From: Paenibacillus sp. 37
Lineage (GTDB): Bacteria > Bacillota > Bacilli > Paenibacillales > Paenibacillaceae
Length of the DNA: 64,000 nt
Direction of reading: 5' to 3'
NCBI RefSeq assembly: GCF_008386395.1
Contig: NZ_CP043762.1
Location: 1 to 64,000, forward strand
The notes under the pieces: model-generated
Seen by the model: the letters and a program-made list of their open reading frames with translations, nothing else
The model's database searches: none
Told to the model about the DNA's origin: nothing
Shown here: positions 44,802 through 58,319 of the stretch, piece after piece
Layout of the letters: each line of letters begins with the position of its first letter
Position numbering within the stretch: position 1 is the first letter of the stretch
Translations under genes and position numbers: made by a program

Positions 44802-46064
44802 TCAATGGTTGTCATTGGAGGCAGCTGGTTCAATAACTCCGCTACCATACTTCACAAGCGATGCTTGCAAGATATCCAGTTGTCGGATGATCCGATATCC
44901 TTGCTCTGTCCCTAAGGGTTGGAGGATGACCAAACCTAGATGATCCAGAACCTCCTGGAGCTGATTCTTGAACGTGTGATAGTGTGCAACCAAAACCTGG
45001 TTGGTTCCGAGCTCCGGCTTCACCTCCAGCACTTGCTGTAATTCATCTACACTGGGCAGGCGTTCATCGGTTTTTACCGCACCCTCATTAGGAAAAGCCA
45101 AGACAGCCGTTTGCAGCGCACGTATAACCGGACTGGATAAAACCGGTATTTGCAACGGGATTTTTTTATTCCTCAAAATTTCCCCTAACTGCCGCGCCTG
45201 TGTTTTCCCCAACTCGCTTAAAGGGTCTTCATCACCATTGCCCCCAACAGGTCTTGCATGGCGAAAGTACAGATTAAAGCCACCCTGAAGCAACAGCGAA
45301 AAGGGATCCCCTCTTTTCGCCGGATGCTGAATTATATCCATAGCCCATCCAGTTTTTGAAATTTTATGCTGGATCGGGAGCAAGTTCTGCTGGGACAGCA
45401 GACCCTCCATTGTCCGGTGGCTGCTTTCGGCCGCCTCTAATCCTGTCGCCTCTGTCGATATCTCCACGATGGAATTGCCGGCCACCGTCCAGATCTCCAC
45501 ACTCTCTTGAAATCCATCCCATTGCCCCTTGTACTTTAGAGCAGTAATTGGGCCTAACACCCTGGTTTCTGTCAAAATGGCGCTAAAGTCGCGTTCTCCC
45601 CATTTTTGAGTCTGCAGCATTGGAGGGGCATTTTCATTCAGAATGCCTCTCCACTCTTCCAAGTTATCCTCTTGAACGATCTTTGCTTTTACTTCATAGG
45701 AAAGATCAAACGTACGGTCAGCTCCGCTCCAATCAACCTCTTGTTTGCAGGTGGGGTCCTCAAGATCAAATCCAAGCTCCTTTGCATGATCCATTACCTG
45801 CTGCAGATCTTGACCCTCAGAAAAGTTAAACCTCTTCTTATAGGTGATTTCCCATTGATCTTTATTCGGTTTCAGCCGGGCACGTAATATCCAATTATCG
45901 CGGAAGAAATCCTGTTCTGGCGTATCTATGAAACGGATATCGATCTGTTGCCCCTCCGATTGATCTAAATGCACAAGCTCTGTGCGCAATGTATGCTTAT
46001 CCGTAAGCACCTGGTTGGCATCGAGCAGAAACTTGATTTCATACTGCGTGTCTACATTACTCAA
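44802..46064 (-). CDS. CYTH-like domain fused to a histidine-phosphatase-like domain
   Basis: About 420 residues. The N-terminal half resembles CYTH triphosphate-tunnel enzymes: TQYEIKFLL (first Glu of ExExK is Gln), IDIRFIDTPEQDFFRDNWIL, RARLKPNKDQWEITYKKRF. The C-terminal ~180 residues resemble the histidine phosphatase superfamily: NLYFRHARP (RHG-type box with Ala for Gly), LSELGKTQARQLGEILRN, LSSPVIRALQTA and VLVAHYHTF for the second His. The TTG at 46064 lies 11 bases after GGAG; an ATG at 46085 has no ribosome site. It is last in the protease operon, 58 bp after the second S8 gene. Natural substrate unknown; the fusion is unusual. Confidence 0.7.
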   Translation of the reverse strand: MSNVDTQYEIKFLLDANQVLTDKHTLRTELVHLDQSEGQQIDIRFIDTPEQDFFRDNWILRARLKPNKDQWEITYKKRFNFSEGQDLQQVMDHAKELGFDLEDPTCKQEVDWSGADRTFDLSYEVKAKIVQEDNLEEWRGILNENAPPMLQTQKWGERDFSAILTETRVLGPITALKYKGQWDGFQESVEIWTVAGNSIVEISTEATGLEAAESSHRTMEGLLSQQNLLPIQHKISKTGWAMDIIQHPAKRGDPFSLLLQGGFNLYFRHARPVGGNGDEDPLSELGKTQARQLGEILRNKKIPLQIPVLSSPVIRALQTAVLAFPNEGAVKTDERLPSVDELQQVLEVKPELGTNQVLVAHYHTFKNQLQEVLDHLGLVILQPLGTEQGYRIIRQLDILQASLVKYGSGVIEPAASNDNH

Positions 46065-46121
46065 TGCAAAACCCACTCCTTTCATATATTCACAAAATCC
46101 ACATGTCGGTAAATTTGTTCC

Positions 46122-47620
46122 CTAAAAACCGTTCAAACGCGAGATCAGTGCCCTCAAATCGGGTAGATTGCCAATCCGTTGGCTGGCAGGTCTGCCTGGC
46201 GCGTCCTGCTGCGGACTGCCCGTTGTGCGCAGCATCTCCCGCACTATTGCGTAAGGCAGTTGCCTTCCACCGCGTGTAAGATGAATGCTCTGCAAGCATG
46301 CCAGAGCTCCAACAACAATTGGAGATGCGCTGGAGGTGCCGCTGAACTGGTCGGTATACCACGAATTCTCGCCGCTGCCCCGTGATTGATCGCCATAACC
46401 GGTAGTTGTCACTTCCCTTCCCCAACCTTGCGCGTCAATAGCCGATCCATAGTTGGAGAAGTCCAATCTGGATCGTGCGGGTCCGTGATTACGGCCATGG
46501 GTTCCTTTCGGGGGAGCTCCTGCTCCGACAAGAATGGCTCCAGAATCTCTTCCTTGTCTGCGAAAGGGATTGCTCCAGTTGGGAGGAAAGCCATCTTTGG
46601 GCTGATCGTACATCGGATCATCTAGATTTTCTCCGCCATTCCCCGCCGCCTCCACAACAAGAATCCCTTTAGCAACAGCATATTTTATCGCAGCCAACAT
46701 ATCGGGGTACCACTCAATGGCAATGTATCCCCGTTGATCGGGTCGCCAGACATAATTATAGTGCGGGCCGGGGACATGCATTTCCAACAGCAAAATGTCG
46801 CCGGTCCGCAATTGATCAGCGGCTTTGCGTATCGCTTCCGGGGCGCAAAGCCGGATGGAATCCAGCAGCACGTCGGGGCTGTCCCCTGAGAGCGCGCAGC
46901 TTTCGTTCCAGGCGATGCCAGCTATGCGAGCCTCGGGGCAAATCCCTTTAATCCCTTTGGCATCGTGATCCCCGCCCATCACCCCAAGCACGGCAGTTCC
47001 GTGATCGTTATAGTCATTCTCCGTACCAATGATACCTTGCTCATTGACCTGCAAATCCTCATGTGAAAAGTTCCATCCGCTTTCAAGATCAATGATCCGC
47101 ACTCTGTTACCATAACCGCCGGGCAGGGTCCAGGCATAATACGCGTCAATCCCTGTCGGTGCTGCATTTAAATAACCTTGCCGTTCGCCGAAATCCGGAG
47201 TAGCTGACGGCAAGAGGGATACATCCTTCTCCGTTTCCACTGCAACTGGGCGGGCATTTCCGGTTCAGGCCGCACATAAGCACCTTGAATTCGGCTGTCT
47301 TGACGCAATTTCTCGGCAATATGATCCAATTTATCATCGGGAGCGTCGACCCTGTAGAAGATGTGCAATCCTGCCTTGGCCTCGGCCATCTCAGCGGTCA
47401 TTTCAACAATCTCGGCTTCAGCTTCCTGTTCCCGCGCAAATAACGGAAGCAGTTGAAAGGATTCTCCCATCTCCGCAGACAATTCCGATAATAGCGTGTG
47501 GACTGTAGGCAGCGGCTGAATCAAGGAGCTCTCTGGAGGGTTTAATGCACCGGGGTCTGATATAACGATCAGCTCGCGTCTGTTCTCGGGCATGCGCCCA
47601 GCCGCCGATGCCCGACTCAT
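46122..47620 (-). pseudogene. S8 (subtilisin-like) peptidase with one frameshift
   Basis: The ATG at 47620 overlaps the stop of the preceding protease (ATGA). The N-terminal ~125 residues (SSLIQPLPTVHTLLSELSAE; HIFYRVDAPDDKLDHIAEKL) look like a pro-domain. After a one-base shift near 47255 the S8 domain follows: Asp in RVRIIDLESGWNF, His in NDYNDHGTAVLGVMGG, Ser in FSGTSSASPIVVGAL. One extra C in the ATGCCCGCCC stretch would restore about 500 residues, so a real frameshift and a sequence error are both possible. No signal peptide is seen. Confidence 0.75.
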
Positions 47621-48528
47621 ACCTTTACCATGTCTTGTCCTGATTCTGCGGATGCTTGGGGAGATGCGCCGGCTTCCTTCCATTTCAGCACATTGGCGTA
47701 CACATCACGGTCAATCCGGGTACCGGAGTTGCTACCGTTGGCAGCACAACCGCCGTAAGCGTGAATACAAATGACTTGATTCGTCTCACCTAGACATACC
47801 GGACCTCCGCTGTTACCGCCCATTGTGTCCAATTTGTAGTATACTTTTCGCGTCTGTACGTTATCGACAATCCCCTTCATGTACCACTGTGTGCCGTTTT
47901 TATCGTAAGGATAGCCTGTATTCAATATAGGCTTTTGATTGATAGTGTCATTAGGATCATACCTGAAGCCAAAATAGCCAGTGTTGTTGCCTATGGTAGA
48001 ATTTAGAATGATTGCCCCATAGTCATATTCTTGATTCCCATCTTGAACCCAGCCGTTGACGGACCAGAAATGCTCGGTTGTAACGGTGAACCGTCCATAA
48101 GGTTCGAGTCTGTCATCTTTACCTGGAATGACAACTATCGATTTATGCCATTTTCTAGTTTCGCTGTCAAATACACAATGCCCCGCAGTAATCACCGTAC
48201 CCGGACCACATAGCCACCCCGTTCCAACGCCCTCACGTCCATCATCCAGTGTAATAATTAACCGGCAGACCGCGGACCAGGAGAATTTCGCGGTATCCAT
48301 TACTCTAAGCCTGTCATCAAGCTGGCAGACTTCCTCTTTATTCACAAATAGCAACGACTCAATGGATGGAAGCTGTTTGTCTTTGATATCTGTTTCCGCT
48401 GCCCCCCGATTGGAGAGGGTACCCGTTCCTTGAAAAGCTTCGGTCTGCGCCGAATCAGCCGCTGTATTGGTAGCGGCAGCCATAACTTCTCCTTTACCGC
48501 TCACCATATTATGCAATGTATCAGCCAT
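47617..48528 (-). CDS. Leaderless V8-like (S1B) serine protease
   Basis: A 303-residue trypsin-fold protease. After ~95 variable residues the domain runs SAVCRLIITLDDGREGVGTG, with His in TVITAGHCVFD, Asp in NQEYDYGAIIL and Ser in TMGGNSGGPVCLGE. The layout resembles glutamyl endopeptidases (V8/Mpr). The start MADTLHNMVSGKGEVMAAAT is not a signal peptide, suggesting cytoplasmic action or an alternative route. AAGGAGTG precedes the ATG. It follows the IspA-like gene by 64 bp and its stop overlaps the next S8 gene, so the four genes are one operon. Confidence 0.85.
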   Translation of the reverse strand: MADTLHNMVSGKGEVMAAATNTAADSAQTEAFQGTGTLSNRGAAETDIKDKQLPSIESLLFVNKEEVCQLDDRLRVMDTAKFSWSAVCRLIITLDDGREGVGTGWLCGPGTVITAGHCVFDSETRKWHKSIVVIPGKDDRLEPYGRFTVTTEHFWSVNGWVQDGNQEYDYGAIILNSTIGNNTGYFGFRYDPNDTINQKPILNTGYPYDKNGTQWYMKGIVDNVQTRKVYYKLDTMGGNSGGPVCLGETNQVICIHAYGGCAANGSNSGTRIDRDVYANVLKWKEAGASPQASAESGQDMVKV

Positions 48529-48592
48529 CTAATTTCACTCCTTACGACTATTTGTACATATTTTCGTTATCCGGCATTTTTGCTCTTCTAGA

Positions 48593-49588
48593 TTAGGCAT
48601 ATTCACTGACATTGACCGGGTGTTGCCGTAAATGTTCCTCCAGCAGCTCGTCGGCTGTAAGATACAACAGACCGTTACCTTCAACGGATTTCGGTCTTCC
48701 CAGCGGAATCGTCCGCTTCGTCAATTGGGCGTAAAGCTCCGGCTCGGTCAACTGTCGGTTAAACTGTTCCGCACTTTGGCAGCTATTGATTAGCAGCGCC
48801 AATGCCCCGGCTACATGCGGTGCAGCCATCGAAGTGCCGGAAAGGATTTTGTAGGGGATGGACTTATCCTCCGCTAGCTCCAGCGGATACGTCGACTTGA
48901 TGTCCACACCCGGAGCTAGCAGATCAATTTCATTGTTCATCGTCAGGAATGGTGCCGAATCAGAGTTGAAATTAATGGCTCCTACTGAAGTCGATTCATT
49001 GAACCCGGCGGGAAAACGAAACTCTTCTTTTCCCGTATTTCCGGCTGCACACACGACAATAATATCGTTGTCTACTGCACGCTTAACCGCGTCATGAATC
49101 CCTTTGTGGTCAGTTGCAAAAGACAATGACATCGAGATGATCTGTACATTTTGGTCAATCGCATAATGAATCGCCTGGGCAATCCATTCCGGTCTTCCGC
49201 GCCCTTGACGGTTGAGAACTTTCAGAATCAGCAGCCCTGCTTCGGGAGCAATGCCGACCACGCCGTCCCCATTTTTCGTCGCAGCGATAATCCCGGCCAC
49301 ATGCGTTCCGTGTCCGTTGTAGTCCTTGTACACGCGAGGAATTCCATCGTCATCATCGGTGAAGTTCTTACCGCCCATAATCCGCTCGCGTAAATCGGGA
49401 TGTTCGGCATCACAGCCGGTATCTAGGACTGCTATCATAACTCCCTTGCCATAATTCCCTTGTTCCCAGTATTGCGGGGCCTGGATCATCTGCACGCCTT
49501 TCGGGATTTCTTTCACATGCTGCCGCACACTTACCATTTCGACCGGAGGCAGCTGTACGTCATCTGCATTGCCTACAAACGTTGACAT
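48593..49588 (-). CDS. Intracellular-type subtilisin (IspA-like S8 peptidase)
   Basis: A 331-residue S8 protease. The short N-terminal extension VRQHVKEIPKGVQMIQAPQY is that of intracellular subtilisins, in which it blocks the active site until cleaved. The triad is Asp in MIAVLDTGCDAEHPDLR, His in DYNGHGTHVAGIIAA, Ser in LSGTSMAAPHVAGALAL; the oxyanion Asn is in VCAAGNTGKEEF. There is no signal peptide. AAGAGGTGA precedes the ATG. First gene of the four-gene operon; 207 bp separate it from the divergent metalloprotease. Confidence 0.9.
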   Translation of the reverse strand: MSTFVGNADDVQLPPVEMVSVRQHVKEIPKGVQMIQAPQYWEQGNYGKGVMIAVLDTGCDAEHPDLRERIMGGKNFTDDDDGIPRVYKDYNGHGTHVAGIIAATKNGDGVVGIAPEAGLLILKVLNRQGRGRPEWIAQAIHYAIDQNVQIISMSLSFATDHKGIHDAVKRAVDNDIIVVCAAGNTGKEEFRFPAGFNESTSVGAINFNSDSAPFLTMNNEIDLLAPGVDIKSTYPLELAEDKSIPYKILSGTSMAAPHVAGALALLINSCQSAEQFNRQLTEPELYAQLTKRTIPLGRPKSVEGNGLLYLTADELLEEHLRQHPVNVSEYA

Positions 49589-49795
49589 GATTCACCTCTT
49601 GTAACAAATTTCAGCTTTTAGCTGCGTGGTTATTATTTGAGCATCTTTTCATATCATCCACTCCTTTTTTTGTTAACGTGTTAAGCCACTGCAGTGCATT
49701 GCCGATTTTCCAAAAGTTAATCCGGATACCGGGTGATCCTTGGTTCATAATATTGTTTGGTTAAAAAATACTCATTACGAAAAGGAGTAACGTCA

Positions 49796-50608
49796 ATGAC
49801 CGAACCGCAGAACGCATTGAAGATTTGTGTCATCTTGAAACCCCCTGCTAACAAAAACAACGAAGCGGTGTCCATCGCAATAAAAGAACGGGCAGATAAT
49901 GCCGGCCCGCTTGAGCTGGAAGCCGACGCCTTGGAGAACATGACCGCCCGCAATGAAGTCGGCCCCGAGATGGCCGTTATGGTCCGAAAACTGTGGCGAA
50001 ACGGCAGAAGGCTACGCGTCCGCTTTCTGGACGGAGAGCCTGCGATTCAGGCCAAGGTCGTCCGTTGGGCCAAGGAATGGGAAAAGTATGCGAATATTAC
50101 CTTTGATTTTGGCGATCACCTGGAGGCGGAGATCCGGATTACCTTTCTCGACAAAGATAAAGCCTACTCGGCCGTAGGGACGGATGCGCTGTTATTCAAT
50201 ACGGGGGCAACCATGAATTTCGGCTGGTTTGACCAGGATACCGAGGAGTCGGAGTTCGAAAGAACCGTCATGCATGAATTCGGCCATGCCCTGGGATGTA
50301 TTCATGAGCACCAGAGTCCATCGTCTGGTATCTGCTGGAACGAACAAGCTGTTCTGGAGCATTTCCGTAGAAGCGACTGGGACGAGGAGACAACAAGACA
50401 CAATGTATTGGATAAAGAAAACCCCTTAAATACAAACTTCACTGAATTTGACCCCAATTCAATCATGCTGTATCCTTTCCCGGGTGAATTGACCTGCGAC
50501 GGAAGAGGTACGCCGTTCAACACCACCCTGTCGGAAACGGATAAAAACTTCATGCGTCAAATGTATCCGCGCGTAGCCGCGCCCGCACCGGAGCCAGTTA
50601 TGGGCTGA
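49796..50608 (+). CDS. Leaderless metzincin (astacin-like) zinc metalloprotease
   Basis: A 270-residue protease with the metzincin zinc site TVMHEFGHALGCIHEHQSP (HExxHxxGxxH) near residue 160 and a Met-turn in SIMLYPFP. The preceding beta-sheet part (IQAKVVRWAKEWEKYANITF; EIRITFLDKDKAYSAVGTDA) matches astacin/M12A-like bacterial proteins. The start MTEPQNALKICVILKPP lacks a signal peptide. AAAAGGAG supports the ATG at 49796. It is transcribed divergently from the serine-protease operon, so a shared control region at 49589-49795 may regulate all five genes. Confidence 0.85.
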   Translation: MTEPQNALKICVILKPPANKNNEAVSIAIKERADNAGPLELEADALENMTARNEVGPEMAVMVRKLWRNGRRLRVRFLDGEPAIQAKVVRWAKEWEKYANITFDFGDHLEAEIRITFLDKDKAYSAVGTDALLFNTGATMNFGWFDQDTEESEFERTVMHEFGHALGCIHEHQSPSSGICWNEQAVLEHFRRSDWDEETTRHNVLDKENPLNTNFTEFDPNSIMLYPFPGELTCDGRGTPFNTTLSETDKNFMRQMYPRVAAPAPEPVMG

Positions 50609-51101: not shown

Positions 51102-51401
51102 TTAACTTCTCTCTACACTCGAAACCCAATTTTTAAAGCAGTCGAGTACTTCTTCCAAATTTGTTGCTCCACCTGCACCGTGAAACACTCTATCCCTCAC
51201 AATACAGTAGAACCAATCTTCTTCATTTCTCTCTTCTTCGATCATATCAAACGGAACATCCTCTAAAAAAGTATCTGTCAAATCGATTTTGACAGACCAA
51301 CCGGGATTATCCACAGTATCAATTTTAACACCGTATGAATGCTCCCAATCACCATTACAGTTTTCAAGATACCAGTTTTGAAGCCATTTTAATGCGTTCA
51401 T
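51102..51401 (-). CDS. Imm53-family immunity protein
   Basis: A 99-residue protein matching immunity protein 53 of polymorphic toxin systems: LKWLQNWYLENCNGDWEHSY, GVKIDTVDNPGWSVKIDLTD, NEEDWFYCIVRDRVFHGAGG. It would neutralise the toxin tip encoded just upstream. GAGGT precedes two adjacent ATGs; the second (51401) has better spacing. Its start is six bases from the toxin-tip stop, the usual toxin-immunity coupling. The gene is intact although its toxin is not, so it may protect against kin. Confidence 0.8.
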   Translation of the reverse strand: MNALKWLQNWYLENCNGDWEHSYGVKIDTVDNPGWSVKIDLTDTFLEDVPFDMIEEERNEEDWFYCIVRDRVFHGAGGATNLEEVLDCFKNWVSSVERS

Positions 51402-51406
51402 CATCT

Positions 51407-51600
51407 CTACCTCTTCTTCGGAATTTCATCTGGTCTTGCTGGTCTAACTCCCCCAGGTATTGATTTACCATTAACATGAGGTGTTGGAACATCTTGTTTT
51501 GTTAATCTGTTGATATGACCCTTTCCTTTTCCATCAAGTGAGCTTAGTTATCTGTATTTCTGCACTATATAACCGAACCCAAATCCATAAAAAGCTGAAT
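51407..51600 (-). pseudogene. Displaced polymorphic-toxin C-terminal tip
   Basis: The frame reads HSAFYGFGFGYIVQKYR, a TAA, then LSSLDGKGKGHINRLTKQDV, HVNGKSIPGGVRPARPDEIP and a stop. The GKGHINR…HVNGK…GGVRPxRPDEIPKK pattern occurs at C-termini of Rhs-type toxins. It has no Rhs core, and its upstream side is cut by an IS3 end at 51600. It pairs with the following Imm53 gene. The toxin activity was not identified. Confidence 0.65.
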
Positions 51601-51680
51601 GACCATTCCCCGGTGGAATACCGAGAAACGGTCGCAGCTTAAATTTCGACTTTTTTGTCTACTTGACAGGGTTATGAACA
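51600..51680 (+). mobile_element. Solo end of the IS3-family element
   Basis: About 80 bp match the transposase-3' end of the IS3 element at 19256: the last codons read VEYRETVAA then TAA (EYRETDAA there), followed by CTTGACAGGGTTATGA to an outer ACA. The rest of the element is deleted. It lies next to repeat copy 10 at nearly the same internal position as in copy 1, in the opposite orientation. Confidence 0.8.
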
Positions 51681-51725
51681 TAAATGGCGACTTTCATTGA
51701 ACTAATGATTCTTGTCCTTATACAA
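51681..51725. repeat. Interspersed repeat, right half, copy 10
   Basis: TAAATGGCGACTTTCATTG and TTCTTGTCC correspond to the part right of the IS3 insertion point in copy 1; the left half was lost with the deletion. Confidence 0.7.
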
Positions 51726-51746
51726 TTTTTTTCTAACGACAATAAA

Positions 51747-52478
51747 TCAGTGTTCTATGGCTACCAAATACTTTTCATTGCCTTTTTTATTAATCAAAGC
51801 AACTTCAAAATCAGATTCCCATTTAAGTTCGCCTAAATGTTTAGCATAGGCAAATTCATCTGGTTGTTCTGATAAGACCTTTTCTAAAAGTACTTGCGTA
51901 CCATCTCGTTGTAGAATAGATATGAATATATCCATGCTTTCTACATTATTATGGCATATGACTTTAGCATTGTACTTCTTATTAGGACTCTTTACTGTTT
52001 TTTTCCAAGTCCATTCATTTACATAACCTAACTCTTCTATTTGTAATGCTATTTCTCTAAATGGCTCAATCTGCCAACTATTACGTAGAGCAAGTTTCTC
52101 GATCCCGTCCATTAGTAGTCGAAGCGTAACCTTTTTTTTCTCCAACTCATTTTTTGCACGAAAGTCATTCAAACTAAATTGGATTGGCGCCGAACACACA
52201 CCTGAATCATTAACAATTCTTTCGTCCGAAATGTTTTCTACACATTCTATTAGGACTTTCCAACAATCTTTCGTTTTGTATTTCCCAAATAAACATTCAA
52301 ACATAGCTGTAATACAGCGAGTTTCCAATCTAAATGAACGTCTTTTCCATTTCCAATTCAATTCATAATCTAATTTTGTTGCTTCGTTGTACTCACATTT
52401 TTGTTTTTTCATTATAGATTCAATGCTTTTATCATTCTGAATATATGGTAAGTCTAAGTCGAATTCTTTTAGATACAT
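51747..52478 (-). CDS. Hypothetical protein in the Rhs immunity region
   Basis: A 243-residue soluble protein with no recognised family: YLKEFDLDLPYIQNDKSIES, YELNWKWKRRSFRLETRCIT, WKVLIECVENISDERIVNDS and at the end ESDFEVALINKKGNEKYLVA. TTAGGAG supports the ATG at 52478. It lies between Imm26 and the displaced toxin tip on the same strand, where Rhs loci store extra immunity genes, so an immunity role is a reasonable guess from position only. Confidence 0.65.
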   Translation of the reverse strand: MYLKEFDLDLPYIQNDKSIESIMKKQKCEYNEATKLDYELNWKWKRRSFRLETRCITAMFECLFGKYKTKDCWKVLIECVENISDERIVNDSGVCSAPIQFSLNDFRAKNELEKKKVTLRLLMDGIEKLALRNSWQIEPFREIALQIEELGYVNEWTWKKTVKSPNKKYNAKVICHNNVESMDIFISILQRDGTQVLLEKVLSEQPDEFAYAKHLGELKWESDFEVALINKKGNEKYLVAIEH

Positions 52479-52808
52479 CTGATTTTCTCCTAACTTTATT
52501 CCCATGGGTGTGGTCTTTGAACAAAACGATTATTATGATACCTCACCCAAATATGTAGAAGTCTTAAGAATTATCCACTTCTCTATAGGGGAGGAAAGTA
52601 ACCCTGTTTCAAAACTAAATACTTCCTGGCTGGAAAATTTACTGGATTCCTTAATATCAGCAGTTCATATTACACCAGAAAATCTAGCGATGGATATGGT
52701 TCTCACAAAGTTACTTATACAGGATATTTAAGATTTACACCGTGAGTAGTACAACTTAATTTATTCCTATTAAACATAATTCATATATCAACTCAAAGAT
52801 TCAATACT

Positions 52809-52858
52809 AAATAAAGCTAAGGATCGCCCTTGTCAAGAAACGATCATTAGCTTTATTT
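52809..52858. terminator. Terminator after Imm26
   Basis: AAATAAAGCTAA / TTAGCTTTATTT outer stem with an inner GATCG / CGATC stem, 44 bp after the Imm26 stop. Confidence 0.65.
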
Positions 52859-52901
52859 GCATCAGAGTGATCTCTGAATCTATAGGCGATATATTCTTGC
52901 A

Positions 52902-53339
52902 CTATTTATTCGGGTCACGGTGCCACTTATTATCTCCCATTATTCTATCAACAATATGATGAGCTTCCCAAACAGCCGCAATCTCTAATCCTTCGCATTC
53001 TTCGCGATTAGAAGGTCTAATCTCTCCCATATGATAAATCAAATATTCTCCTGATATCTTATCAATGATACAGGCAGGTGGGGGCCATGCCTCTTCTTCA
53101 TCCGGGAATGGACGATTCTCAATGACCGGCCAATCCCCTGATTTCAGTACATCATCATATACACCCACGATAAATTGATATTCCTCTTCTTGAGGTATCT
53201 CTTCTATAGAGTCACTTGTAAGATTATAGATTGCAATACTGGCATCTTTAAGCCTTCTCCCAAAGGCAAACTTATCGTTAGGCAAAGGGATAGCGTAGAT
53301 ATCACCCAATTTTATTCGTTTACGTTTCGTTTTTTTCAC
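52902..53339 (-). CDS. Imm26-family immunity protein
   Basis: A 145-residue protein matching immunity protein 26: KRKRIKLGDIYAIPLPNDKF, AFGRRLKDASIAIYNLT, then EYQFIVGVYDDVLKSGDWPV. Imm26 proteins accompany many Rhs/CDI toxins. The GTG start at 53339 overlaps the Rhs stop (GTGA), so it is translated directly after the toxin and is presumably its cognate immunity. Intact. Confidence 0.85.
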   Translation of the reverse strand: MKKTKRKRIKLGDIYAIPLPNDKFAFGRRLKDASIAIYNLTSDSIEEIPQEEEYQFIVGVYDDVLKSGDWPVIENRPFPDEEEAWPPPACIIDKISGEYLIYHMGEIRPSNREECEGLEIAAVWEAHHIVDRIMGDNKWHRDPNK

Positions 53340-56300
53340 GGTTTTCCAAACTCCTTCGTTGCGGCTTTAATATACTTACTGTACTTCTTATTTTTCGGAG
53401 AAATACCATTAATCGCATTCCCTGAAGTACCATTTTTAGATTTGGCGCCGCCATTTTTTATGATCATTTGCTGTTCTCTTCCACGTATTGCATTTTTGTT
53501 ACTTGATGATCTATCAATGGTTGCCCGACCATATCCATTTTTATTCATATGGTGGTTAGTATCCCTTTTAGCGATGTTTTCTAAAGGCGTACCTTTTCCA
53601 CTTGTTCGCCCAGTATAAACAGTACCCGTTTTAGTGTTGGTTTTAGTGTAAGTTTGATACGTTTTAGTTGTGGCTTTTTTAATTGCCTTAGTCGCTGCTT
53701 TTTGGGCAACTTTTTTGACTGTGGTTTTTACTACTTCCTTTGCTACCACTCGAACAATCACTATGATAATAATGGGAATGAAAGGAAAATTCCCATCGTC
53801 ATCTACTAACGAAACCGGATTATTCAGTGAGTAACTATATCCATTTCGGTTTAATGGATTATCTAAGTCCGTATCCTGTTCAAGATCTAGTGTTATAAAA
53901 TTTCCATGCTGAGGATTATAATAACGACTTAATAAATAATAAAATCCTGTCTCAGTATCATATTTATAACTAGCATACCGGTAGGGGTTCTCTTCGGCAA
54001 GGATACCGCTCTGGCTTATCACATTCCCCCATGCATCATACTCATACTGAGCTACTTCTTGTCCGTCTTCATCAGTTAAAGCTACAACATCACCATGACC
54101 GTTTAACTGGTAATAATAGGTATGCCCATCTTTAGTCATTGCTACCGGACTTCCACTATCATCCCACGTATACTCTCGAAGTGTTTTGTTATTTCCATCC
54201 GTTTCATAGATGACTTCATCGCCATCATAGAAAAAATTCGTCGTTCCGGACTGACCAATTGACTGGATACGTCGCCCCTGTTCATCATAACTATAGTGTT
54301 GTATACTCTGACCAGCTTGATCTTGCACTTCAATTAATTGATCCAGTGCATCATATATATACGTTTGTTTCCCATCGTTTAATAGGTTTCCATTATTGTC
54401 ATACTGATAAGCTTGTCCATTAACAGAAGTTAATTGATTGGCGTTATTGTGTTCGTATACAGTGGTTTGCTCCTGCCCATTGGTGACAACTACTTTTTGT
54501 GTCCGATTACCTACATCGTCATAACTATATTTAATCGTTTTCCTATCGGGAAGAGTTTCTTGTTCGAGTTGGTTAAGCGCATCGTACTCATACGTTGTAT
54601 CACCTAATTCCGAATGAATTGTCTTTACATTCTCATTGGAGTCATATGTGTAGTTGTACTCGCGAATTACACTCCCTGTGCTGGAGTAATCTCCGTAAGT
54701 GCGCAACTGTTCCCCAGAATCGTAGTCAGCCTTGGTTACAATTCCGTTTGCTCGATTGGCTTGTTCCAATGCAGCCATATCATTGTACTGATATGAAATG
54801 AGGTTTTGATTATCTTTGGTAATACTTTTCACTTGATCTAACTCTGTGTAATCATAAGTTACAGTAGACGAATGTGCATCAGTTGTATAAGAGAGCTCCT
54901 GAAGTCCACTATTCGCATTATAAATATACGACTTTTGATGTCCTCTATCTACCTCTGTTTCAGGTAACCCATCAGACTTATACGTAAAGGAACGAACACC
55001 ATTGTTTACATTGACAAGTAAACCATTTTCATCATATTCATAAGCCCACTTTTGTTGCCCGTCTATACTTATAGTTTTGAGTTGATCCAAAGCTGTGAAT
55101 GTCGTAGAGATTTTGTTCCCGTTAGGAGTTGTGGTCTCCATTAGGTTGCCATTTGAATCATATTTGTTATCGGTCACATTGCCAATGGCATCTGTCTTTT
55201 TCGTTAACTGATTTTGCCCATTGTACTCATACTGAACTACAGCCTGTTTTGGATTAATCGTTTTATACAAGTTTCCGACTGTATCATACTCATACGTTGT
55301 CTCTTTTCGCTTCGGATCAATTACAGCTTTCAGACGATTTAACTTATCATAATGGTAATCGGTACGATTGTTATTTCCGTCGGTATTTGCGATCATATTC
55401 CCAACAGTATCTGTTGTCACTGTTGTTGTGTTTCCTGCTGCATCTATTACCGATTTGATATCGTTACCTTTATCGTCGTAGCTGTACGTTTCTATCGATT
55501 GGTCTGGATACGTCGTCTTTTTTAAGTTTCCATAGGTGTCATATTCATAACGCGTCACCTTTTGCTTCGCATCCACGATGGTTTCCAAATCACCAACTGC
55601 GGTATACGAGTAATTAGTCACATTTTGTCTAGGGTCAATTTCTTTGACCACGTGGTTCAGGTCATTGTACTCGTATGTCGTAACATTTCCAACTTCATCG
55701 ATTTGAGTTAGAACATTACCTTTACTATCATATGTCTGTTCAGCAACAGTTCCATCTGGATTGGTTACTTTCTTGACATTGTAGTTTGCATCTAGGACAA
55801 ACTGAATGATTTCACCCTTGGCATCTTGGATTTTCTCCGCCACGAAGTTAGCGTTCAGCGTATAGTTTGTCGTATGGCCGTTTGCATTTGTTACGTTTGC
55901 TGTGCGTGCAGTGGTGTCATATTTGTACTGGGTTGCCGGCCGATCACTTGCATCTGTAACCGAAACCGTTGAAGGTTCCTGCACTTTAACCAAGTACTCT
56001 TGATCATAGGTATACGTGGTTAATCGATTATTCGGGTCAAAAATGGTTTTAATGTAATTTCCACCATAACTAAACTGAGTTCGGCTATAAGTTCCATCCT
56101 CACTATACTGATCTACAGTGACTAACTTTCCATTCTGATACGTATAATCCGTTTTACGTCCTTCAAGCATGGCGTAATCAACTAACCCATCTGAAGTATA
56201 TTCAAATGCAATGGTCCGGCCTGATGGGTCCTCTATACCCGTTAGTGCTCCGTCCCCATTCCTTTTATACGTAATTCGGTTTCCATGCATATCTTGTTCA

Positions 56301-58291
56301 TAACTGAGTTTGGCTTGAGTGATGCTTACTTGATCATCGTTAGAAACCGTATCGAAATGCATCAGGTATCCATGTTTGTCCGTTAAGTCATAACCCGTCG
56401 TGGCCCCTGAGCTACTTTTCACCTTTTTTAGTGTCAGATATTCGCCCGCTGAAGGCGTATACGTATTGTTTGATGCGTTATATTTGAATTCATAAGCAGA
56501 TCCAGTATGGTCTGTAAACAATACGTCTCCGGTTTTGTAAGCATCTACGATGGTTTCCCCACCCGTATAATACCATCCGTAGCCAAAGGGTGAAGATTCG
56601 CTAGATTTTGAGTTATATGTCCGCATGAAGTCTACGGAGGTATCTCCTCTACCCGTTAAGGAATAATCATTGAACTGGATGATATTGTTCCCCGTGGCCA
56701 AATTGGTATAACTAGTTCCGTTAGCTATCGGATGACTATCATATGTCCAATAATCTTTTAGACCAAGTCGGCTAGCAGAGGTGTATGTCACGCTTAAAAG
56801 CGGCGTGTAATCTGGGTTGGCCGTGTCATCACCGGATATAAACTTCTTGTAGCTATTTGTTGTTTCTGAATTGCTTTTCAACATAAATCCTTTGTTTGTT
56901 GTGGGGTCATTTATCCACTTTTCTAGCATATTGGCAGGCAAGGACCACTTATAGTTTGCTGAAAGTGATGTTAACGGTCCGACTGCAGTTGTAGCGACTT
57001 GCGAAGCATTGAAATCTCCACCCTGTTTACTCCACAAGTTCGTAGCATCTGCATACATCCAGGATGCAGAGTATTCTGTCCATGCTTTATTGACACTATT
57101 TAGAGTGATATCTACATTAGTATTATTTGAAACGGAAGCTAACCAGAGGTTCAAGTCAGCCGTTAACACCTTTGCCCCCTGTGGGATGGTCGATGTGTCA
57201 AACTGAATAAGAGAACGGATGACATTAGAGCTAGTAGCGTCTTTATATAGACCTACCCCTAGTGTCGTGTCGGTTGCTCCAGTTTGTTTGGGAAAAGCAC
57301 TACGTATATTGGTATCCGCTAAGCGGTATGTCGGTTGAAATTTAACAATGGTCGGATCGATGGTGACTGGGTATACACGAGATGCATCATTAAGCCATGC
57401 GATACTTGGGATCACGTCAATGAATAACTGTCCCTTTTTCTCTTTCAATTCATAGTGAATATCGTAGGAAAGAGATTCTTCAGGGTAAGCATTAACTCCC
57501 TCTACCTGCTGATAACCTTCGGGTATAAAAGAGTCATACATTAACGGTTTATCGATGATATATTCAATATCGCCAGTAGATGGGTTAATCAAGGAAACGG
57601 AGCCATCCTGTTCCTGGCGATAATCCAAATTACCTAGAGTTAAGGCAAAGGAGTAAATCACTGATTTTTTGCCTGTCGGCTTTTTGCTGAGTTTAAGCTC
57701 TTCTTTGAGTCTATCGTTTCCCAGGGTATAAATTAAATCAGTATCGGGATAAAGCCCCTTATACGTCATTACATTATTCTTAACAATCCCTGCCGGCTTT
57801 GTGCTAGAGATGCTTTGCGTAGTTGTTAACGTATTTGTTTCCGCTATGGGGTTTAGACCAATGCGGAATTTATCCTCTTTGATCTCTATCAAATTATCAG
57901 AAACAGAATGTTTCTTGTTCATTTCTACTTTGAATTCATGATCGTTATTGTAAGCTGTTTGACTCGTCGTGTTTAAACGGTTATCAATCAGCTTCCACTC
58001 TTGATTTGAGGGATCTTGATAGTGAATGGGAGTTTCAGAAATTTGAGTTGTGTACGTTCCATTCTCATTTGCGAATGTCTTCGATTTCTCACTACGAAGC
58101 GAAGCAATCTCTTTTGGGGTGTTGTTGGACGACAAGTTAGAATCGTCTGAAGTGTTGCTTTCTTGAAGTGTTGATCTTTCGGCTGAGGGGCTCCCCCAAG
58201 CAGTGGTATTATTGAGCGATGATGTAGAAATTAAGGAGCCAGCAATAATTAAGCTGACCACCTTATTCCAAAATTTGTGTTTATTTCTCAT
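53336..58291 (-). CDS. Rhs-family polymorphic toxin with GIY-YIG-like nuclease tip
   Basis: A 1,651-residue exported toxin. Signal peptide KVVSLIIAGSLISTSS; a DNRLRE-type domain at about 320-500 (TDTTLGVGLYKDATSSNVIR); then some 35 YD/Rhs repeats forming a shell (e.g. GNLKKTTYPDQSIETYSYDD), and the core end YRYASYKYDTETGFYYLLSR, YYNPQHGNFITLDLEQD, NPLNRNGYSYSLNNPVSLVD. The tip after a hydrophobic linker reads TKTGTVYTGRTSGKG, RDTNHHMNKNGYGRATIDRS and RGREQQMIIKNGG, like a GIY-YIG/URI nuclease (Y…YTG.R…E); this assignment is tentative. The ATG at 58291 follows AAGGGG. Confidence 0.9.
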   Translation of the reverse strand: MRNKHKFWNKVVSLIIAGSLISTSSLNNTTAWGSPSAERSTLQESNTSDDSNLSSNNTPKEIASLRSEKSKTFANENGTYTTQISETPIHYQDPSNQEWKLIDNRLNTTSQTAYNNDHEFKVEMNKKHSVSDNLIEIKEDKFRIGLNPIAETNTLTTTQSISSTKPAGIVKNNVMTYKGLYPDTDLIYTLGNDRLKEELKLSKKPTGKKSVIYSFALTLGNLDYRQEQDGSVSLINPSTGDIEYIIDKPLMYDSFIPEGYQQVEGVNAYPEESLSYDIHYELKEKKGQLFIDVIPSIAWLNDASRVYPVTIDPTIVKFQPTYRLADTNIRSAFPKQTGATDTTLGVGLYKDATSSNVIRSLIQFDTSTIPQGAKVLTADLNLWLASVSNNTNVDITLNSVNKAWTEYSASWMYADATNLWSKQGGDFNASQVATTAVGPLTSLSANYKWSLPANMLEKWINDPTTNKGFMLKSNSETTNSYKKFISGDDTANPDYTPLLSVTYTSASRLGLKDYWTYDSHPIANGTSYTNLATGNNIIQFNDYSLTGRGDTSVDFMRTYNSKSSESSPFGYGWYYTGGETIVDAYKTGDVLFTDHTGSAYEFKYNASNNTYTPSAGEYLTLKKVKSSSGATTGYDLTDKHGYLMHFDTVSNDDQVSITQAKLSYEQDMHGNRITYKRNGDGALTGIEDPSGRTIAFEYTSDGLVDYAMLEGRKTDYTYQNGKLVTVDQYSEDGTYSRTQFSYGGNYIKTIFDPNNRLTTYTYDQEYLVKVQEPSTVSVTDASDRPATQYKYDTTARTANVTNANGHTTNYTLNANFVAEKIQDAKGEIIQFVLDANYNVKKVTNPDGTVAEQTYDSKGNVLTQIDEVGNVTTYEYNDLNHVVKEIDPRQNVTNYSYTAVGDLETIVDAKQKVTRYEYDTYGNLKKTTYPDQSIETYSYDDKGNDIKSVIDAAGNTTTVTTDTVGNMIANTDGNNNRTDYHYDKLNRLKAVIDPKRKETTYEYDTVGNLYKTINPKQAVVQYEYNGQNQLTKKTDAIGNVTDNKYDSNGNLMETTTPNGNKISTTFTALDQLKTISIDGQQKWAYEYDENGLLVNVNNGVRSFTYKSDGLPETEVDRGHQKSYIYNANSGLQELSYTTDAHSSTVTYDYTELDQVKSITKDNQNLISYQYNDMAALEQANRANGIVTKADYDSGEQLRTYGDYSSTGSVIREYNYTYDSNENVKTIHSELGDTTYEYDALNQLEQETLPDRKTIKYSYDDVGNRTQKVVVTNGQEQTTVYEHNNANQLTSVNGQAYQYDNNGNLLNDGKQTYIYDALDQLIEVQDQAGQSIQHYSYDEQGRRIQSIGQSGTTNFFYDGDEVIYETDGNNKTLREYTWDDSGSPVAMTKDGHTYYYQLNGHGDVVALTDEDGQEVAQYEYDAWGNVISQSGILAEENPYRYASYKYDTETGFYYLLSRYYNPQHGNFITLDLEQDTDLDNPLNRNGYSYSLNNPVSLVDDDGNFPFIPIIIIVIVRVVAKEVVKTTVKKVAQKAATKAIKKATTKTYQTYTKTNTKTGTVYTGRTSGKGTPLENIAKRDTNHHMNKNGYGRATIDRSSSNKNAIRGREQQMIIKNGGAKSKNGTSGNAINGISPKNKKYSKYIKAATKEFGKP

Positions 58292-58319
58292 GTTGTATCC
58301 CCTTGTCAATTTTTTCACA

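Follow-up and report, generated by a model that had tools for sequence, protein, structure and literature searches.

Several described systems bear on a set of hydrolase genes in the soil bacterium Paenibacillus sp. 37. For System 3 (Kaur et al. 2020), with trypsin, S8 and NucA, a protease cascade has been proposed (PMC7159879), and protease-activated nucleases are reported in defence at Hachiman, AVAST and canu loci (PMC12799240). Intracellular subtilisins (ISPs) are inhibited by a propeptide with an LIPY/F motif and, in the model cited for them, activation starts in a few molecules and is passed on to others by calcium (PMC6220982). The locus described here lies in a window (the whole stretch of DNA analysed) of 64,000 nucleotides, positions 1 to 64,000 of NZ_CP043762.1, a 543-kb contig separate from the chromosome. 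It comprises four minus-strand genes, for a subtilase of ISP type (S8a), a trypsin-like protease (S1), a second subtilase (S8b) and a fusion of a CYTH domain with a histidine phosphatase, and a divergent gene for a metzincin (MZ); all of the encoded proteins are leaderless. The linkage of these genes is real: islands of leaderless hydrolases recur in endospore-forming Bacilli, and this locus represents one form of them. Such an island is not described in the literature searched (most subscription journals lay outside its reach), and a function is proposed for it below from sequence.

A recurring hydrolase island

A search of 392 Paenibacillales genomes with S8a returned 51 matches at E <= 1e-95, seven of them at E <= 1e-140 and, after a gap, 44 at 7e-111 to 7e-97. 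The S8a clade is thus present in 7/392 genomes, and the hydrolase cluster surrounds it in 7/7. The 44 ordinary ISP loci (L086-L129; 13 kb each, three shorter) have endonuclease I nearby in six cases; none has a CYTH, phosphatase, S1, MZ, astacin, M14, M28, M43, XendoU or DUF2278 gene by open reading frame (ORF) scan and tblastn, and an S8b-type protein is never the best match of any frame in the ORF scan (the subtilisin of one control locus, L101, was itself detected by tblastn only and not by the ORF scan). The figure of 7/7 is partly circular, because the partner queries were taken from the clusters themselves; 0/44 is not, nor is the result with MZ, which at E <= 1e-25 is found in 2/319 genomes (the window's and G253), both times within a cluster. 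Paenibacillus albidus (G357) has MZ and is missing from these matches, presumably being outside the sample of 319. A second ISP of G386 (L130, E 1.8e-68) has endonuclease I and DUF2278 nearby.

In a tree of 56 subtilases the ten cluster copies fall into two groups, eight together (support 97/90) and those of G144 and G164 joined by L130 (100/100). The cluster label requires two changes on this tree, and none of 500 shuffles was as low. Two separate subtilisin lineages therefore carry the same partners, and in the second of them CYTH and phosphatase are two genes: the adjacent genes of G144 run in the order S8b, CYTH, phosphatase, S8a, and in G164 S8b and S8a are accompanied by a CYTH/phosphatase remnant. 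In G265 a trypsin/exo-endo-phosphatase/endonuclease I chain, phosphatase, endonuclease I, S8a, CYTH, DUF2278 and M14 stand with a divergent S8 gene; G253 has MZ, endonuclease I, S8a, CYTH, DUF2278 and M14. In G356 the set consists of a divergent S8 gene, endonuclease I, S8a, CYTH interrupted by stops, DUF2278 and M14. The remaining versions are M14, another S8, a short endonuclease I and S8a (G372), astacin, S8a and S8b (G386), and endonuclease I, S8a (64%), CYTH, an M43 metzincin, M28 and a YukJ/DUF2278 gene on a Priestia megaterium plasmid. Near the Priestia cluster (L053 16254-18116, minus strand) is the gene for a protein of 620 aa that has a peptidoglycan-binding domain and matches SpoIID weakly, a possible wall-active partner.

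The original prediction, a leaderless cluster of five proteases of three catalytic types, stands in part: the genes stay linked in related genomes, as its own proposed search for the fusion and its neighbours has borne out, and the proteins are leaderless, but we find four proteases, of two catalytic types, S8b being one gene split by a frame change in the window.

The encoded proteins

The features of the locus are as follows.
48593..49588, minus strand: S8a, leaderless subtilase of ISP type, first of the minus-strand set (Pfam PF00082, match to 7xr8, Asp/His/Ser motifs, tree).
47617..48528, minus strand: S1, leaderless trypsin-like, glutamyl-endopeptidase-like protease (Pfam PF00089/PF13365, match to 1p3c, His/Asp/Ser motifs).
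47168..47620, minus strand: N-terminal part of S8b, out of frame with the remainder in the present assembly; its start overlaps the S1 stop (ATGA).
46122..47240, minus strand: catalytic part of S8b, the second subtilase (Pfam PF00082, catalytic motifs, comparison with P. albidus).
44802..46085, minus strand: CYTH/histidine-phosphatase fusion, 427 aa (CYTH at about residues 13-258, phosphatase at about 267-410); the start is likely TTG 46064, as in P0001.
49796..50608, plus strand: MZ, divergent leaderless metzincin (M12A, myroilysin-like; HExxHxxGxxHE, Met-turn, match to 5gwd); the start is probably ATG 49796.
49724..49752, plus strand: promoter-like GGATA-17 nt-CATAATA upstream of MZ, resembling sporulation sigma-factor sites in their usual consensus.

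Signal peptides were judged by a proxy, hydropathy and the longest uncharged run within the first 60 residues, in 46 cluster proteins from the window, P. albidus, G144, G164, G386, G265, G253, G356, G372, G246 and the P. megaterium plasmid. The longest uncharged run is 4-14 residues in these proteins versus 16-22 in nine secreted proteins, and no signal-peptide-like run was found in any of the 46. The highest values are 14 in S8a of G265 (an overlong frame) and 12 in S8a of G253; the hydropathy of G386 S8b (2.03) slightly exceeds the lowest secreted value (1.93). Among the secreted proteins are CYTH and phosphatase paralogues from the chromosome of the window's own genome (L029, L030); a single genome thus has each of the two domains in a leaderless and in a secreted form. 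The secreted chromosomal CYTH gene has a recurring neighbourhood of its own (L029 8778-16582; L073 8458-15076; L075 7590-14631) with a LysR-type regulator, an ABC transporter (ATPase, binding protein, fused permease) and a metallo-beta-lactamase-like hydrolase, all named by eye from sequence, which suggests extracellular phosphoester processing coupled to uptake.

S8a is closer to ISP structures (7xr8, 7y6m, 6f9m, 2x8j) than to any other solved structure, the best being 7xr8, 'Major intracellular serine protease' (E 2.6e-104), and has the catalytic Asp, His and Ser motifs. S1 appears glutamyl-endopeptidase-like (1p3c, E 4.7e-21), with His, Asp and Ser motifs present, and MZ matches myroilysin (5gwd, E 1.7e-46) and has both the HExxHxxGxxHE motif and the Met-turn of the astacin type (M12A). 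Glutamyl endopeptidases and myroilysin belong to secreted families; S1 and MZ keep their catalytic motifs but are leaderless. S8b is a single unbroken 520-aa gene in P. albidus, to which the window's catalytic part is 94% identical over its length; in the window it is split by a one-base frame change, at a point where P0027 is continuous, and the break is either an assembly error or a mutation. The cluster genes are under purifying selection between the window genome and P. albidus, with ratios of non-synonymous to synonymous substitution (dN/dS) of 0.08 for S8a, 0.18 for S1, 0.09 for the catalytic part of S8b, 0.27 for MZ and 0.22 for the fusion (the portion after the P. albidus break); the broken gene copies listed below speak against such selection.

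S8b was rejected as a marker of the system, being too widespread (at E <= 1e-60, at least 3808 of the 7999 proteins scored). Around its relatives on plasmids of Nostoc, Haloferax, Mycetohabitans, Bradyrhizobium and Paraglaciecola, no gene within about 7 kb is named as CYTH, phosphatase or intracellular subtilisin; a 'serine protease' lies about 2.7 kb from the Bradyrhizobium relative. Those on the Haloferax (archaeal; L077 6986-8716) and Nostoc (L076 6938-8578) plasmids are about 50% identical, pointing to very wide horizontal transfer. On a Bradyrhizobium conjugative plasmid (L080 855-14623) two M12 peptidases, a caspase-family gene and a 5.4-kb trypsin-domain gene lie close together with a DNA/RNA non-specific endonuclease at the edge, an ensemble that resembles the Kaur conflict systems.

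The CYTH/histidine-phosphatase fusion

The fusion is a family: a search among 5.8 billion proteins gave 25, with members in Paenibacillus, P. polymyxa included, and Bacillus, of which 17 full-length fusions were fetched and aligned with that of the window (18 in all; P0005 was left out and the others are fragments), while P0025 is a secreted CYTH-only relative. Chance joining was thereby ruled out, and a viral origin was rejected after a scan of viral_contigs with the alignment gave no relative. Some match to the fusion occurs in 194/392 Paenibacillales genomes, mostly to secreted CYTH proteins of about 290 aa; fusions proper were found there in P. albidus (broken near its start) and in G246 (broken, with an XendoU gene directly upstream), in 398 Bacilli genomes as the window copy only, in 75 genomes of the genus as the window copy and that of G246, and in none of five genomes of G467's genus, presumably the B. 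cereus group. A plasmid search returned only two partial relatives, a Priestia CYTH gene and a Skermanella phosphatase. Profile searches against solved structures gave no match for the fusion, and CYTH alone yielded no reliable one (best E 0.025). In G164 a 168-aa frame (L065 9319-9825, plus strand) joins the start of CYTH to the end of the phosphatase; it apparently arose by internal deletion of two adjacent genes, one possible route to fusions.

The original prediction suspected that both halves had shifted from catalysis to binding, which is supported for CYTH but not for the phosphatase. R275, H276, R322, E354 and H368 are invariant in the 18 fusions, and the matching columns are kept in five fused, split and secreted phosphatase relatives. 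The domain has the catalytic Arg-His, second Arg and second His of histidine phosphatase branch 1 and scores above the Pfam cut-off. A degenerate phosphatase was ruled out by these residues; the RHA box is a variant and not a loss, and the active site, as judged by conservation, is intact. The CYTH domain has the triphosphate-tunnel fold. In that fold the ExExK motif binds metal and substrate and the second Glu of ExE binds metal 2 (PMC8233210), and in AtTTM3 changing Glu-2, Glu-4 or Glu-169 strongly lowers activity (PMC4641920). With residues mapped by motif only, ExExK reads QxExK in the window; its first Glu is absent in 8/9 aligned CYTH rows, the Priestia copy being the exception, and in ExE the second Glu is replaced by Ser/Thr in 9/9. 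By this mapping the domain is without both metal-2 glutamates, a loss not due to fusion because secreted relatives have it as well.

Promoter elements and surroundings

The sporulation-like promoter pattern was found upstream of MZ (window and G253) and of CYTH (Priestia), in 3/18 lead regions versus 2/643 controls (Fisher p 1.6e-4, uncorrected, counted after seven sigma-factor motif classes and then four patterns had been tried and spacing and first box retuned). The 18 remain of 20 regions scanned, two P. albidus near copies having been dropped; one of the 20 (G144 S8b) was set at a wrong start codon, and the controls contain near copies from related genomes. The pattern is a hint, a weak pointer to a possible sporulation link. 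Sigma-70 (10 versus 7.5) and terminator (10 versus 6.7) scans were barely above shuffles. A 13-codon frame with a strong ribosome-binding site lies directly upstream of S8a (49611-49652, minus strand) and is kept in P. albidus (MKRCSNNNHAAKS in the window versus MKRYTNNNHAAKS); it may encode a leader peptide. Next to the cluster (51102-58318, minus strand) lies a gene for a 1660-aa Rhs-repeat protein whose start resembles a signal peptide; downstream of it follows an immunity gene, Imm53. An Rhs gene is near the P. albidus copy too, but on the opposite side.

Proposed function

With a probability of roughly 0.43, the cluster would encode cytosolic zymogens that dismantle and recycle the macromolecules and phosphate of a dying, perhaps sporulating, cell. 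The hydrolases would be made in the cytosol and stored as zymogens, with S8a, inhibited by its propeptide and activated by calcium as in the ISP lineage, as the first protease and the glutamyl endopeptidase, S8b and MZ acting after it. Such an S8a-led cascade is a reasonable reading of the set; its trigger would be the breakdown of ion control, either during lysis or in a mother cell that is sporulating. Of the two halves of the fusion, the phosphatase would be the active phosphate enzyme and CYTH may bind tri- or polyphosphate or perform altered chemistry. The kit would take apart both protein and nucleic acid, because the sister clusters add endonucleases and exopeptidases. The leaderless proteins, together with the descent of S8a from intracellular subtilisins, agree with the earlier suggestion that proteolysis takes place inside the cell or after release by lysis. 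A wider version, which we regard as doubtful, is a modular demolition system of endospore formers, assembled at least twice, in which leaderless zymogens acting on protein, nucleic acid and polyphosphate are kept in the cytosol and switched on by the ISP, at lysis or in the mother cell during sporulation, and a CYTH/phosphatase protein handles the released tri- or polyphosphate.

Several observations weigh against this proposal. The window set is without a nuclease, and a search of G000 with the cluster endonuclease I gave nothing at E <= 1e-8. The LIPY/F propeptide motif reads LPPV in S8a of the window and P. albidus, which is why we call S8a an ISP-type variant and not a plain ISP; the L/F-x-P-Y/F form is kept in 8/10 cluster copies. 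Several of the clusters contain broken genes: S8b is interrupted in the window, the fusion in both P. albidus and G246, and CYTH in both G356 and G164. Endonuclease I is short in G372, and the promoter pattern is absent from 15/18 lead regions.

An antiphage or abortive-infection conflict system, in which infection triggers the protease cascade, nucleases are unmasked and the infected cell is killed, is unlikely. Its logic would be that of the protease-activated nucleases (PMC12799240) and System 3 (PMC7159879), and it would suit the patchy distribution of the island, the trypsin-exo/endo-phosphatase-endonuclease I chain of G265 and the endonuclease I beside S8a in several clusters. However, no sensor or nucleoside triphosphatase domain was found in the cluster proteins scanned with Pfam, and PADLOC, run on nine cluster proteins, found no system-defining set, only single-domain resemblances (subtilase, IetS, RT-protease, LmuA, Avs1b, PtuB), so a sensor role of the fusion and a conflict role, both raised in the original prediction, find no support in these scans; the phosphate proteins and exopeptidases suit digestion better, and the window set has no nuclease.

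Export without a signal peptide, or release by lysis of sister cells, with the enzymes attacking neighbours or digesting food outside, is also rather improbable: the cluster loci read contain no gene recognised as serving secretion, and S8a groups with intracellular subtilisins, against which stand the likeness of S1 and MZ to secreted families, the signal peptides of the chromosomal CYTH and phosphatase paralogues and the adjoining Rhs and Imm53 genes. That the genes are accessory hydrolases travelling together on mobile DNA without a common function would explain a cluster GC content of 0.48-0.54 versus 0.40 in the flanks (0.43 and 0.49 in two chromosomal stretches), the transposase fragment adjoining the P. 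albidus copy and the broken genes, but is made very unlikely by the purifying selection, the same partners beside two subtilisin lineages, the gene order of G144 and the 7/7 versus 0/44 for partners other than endonuclease I.

Several of the island's families are usually met as secreted enzymes, and a repeated set of general proteases and nucleases kept in the cytosol would imply an active need for them and tight control. Were the demolition proposal true, the island would be a bacterial counterpart of regulated cell dismantling, and intracellular subtilisins, whose regulation is called little known (PMC6220982), would gain definite partners to test.

Comparison with known systems

A passage search of PMC8195603 gave no occurrence of the words CYTH or subtilisin. 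With System 3 the island shares a number of peptidases, trypsin and S8 among them, a nuclease, although here in the sister clusters, and a proposed cascade (PMC7159879); it differs in that NucA was not found among the cluster proteins scanned with Pfam, in having endonuclease I in the sisters only, and in the added CYTH, phosphatase, exopeptidases and DUF2278, and it occurs in Bacilli whereas System 3 is reported mostly from alphaproteobacteria. With the Hachiman, AVAST and canu pairs the sister clusters share a protease and a nuclease encoded together, but those pairs have a metallo-beta-lactamase-type nuclease and defence sensors (PMC12799240), neither of which is seen in the island. The fusion departs from the CYTH/triphosphate tunnel enzymes AtTTM3 and YgiF in that the metal-2 glutamates of ExExK and ExE are gone and the partner is a histidine phosphatase instead of CHAD. 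S8a resembles the ISPs in being without a signal peptide and having a short N-terminal extension, and unlike the 44 ordinary ISPs of the order it forms its own clade and is located in a hydrolase cluster.

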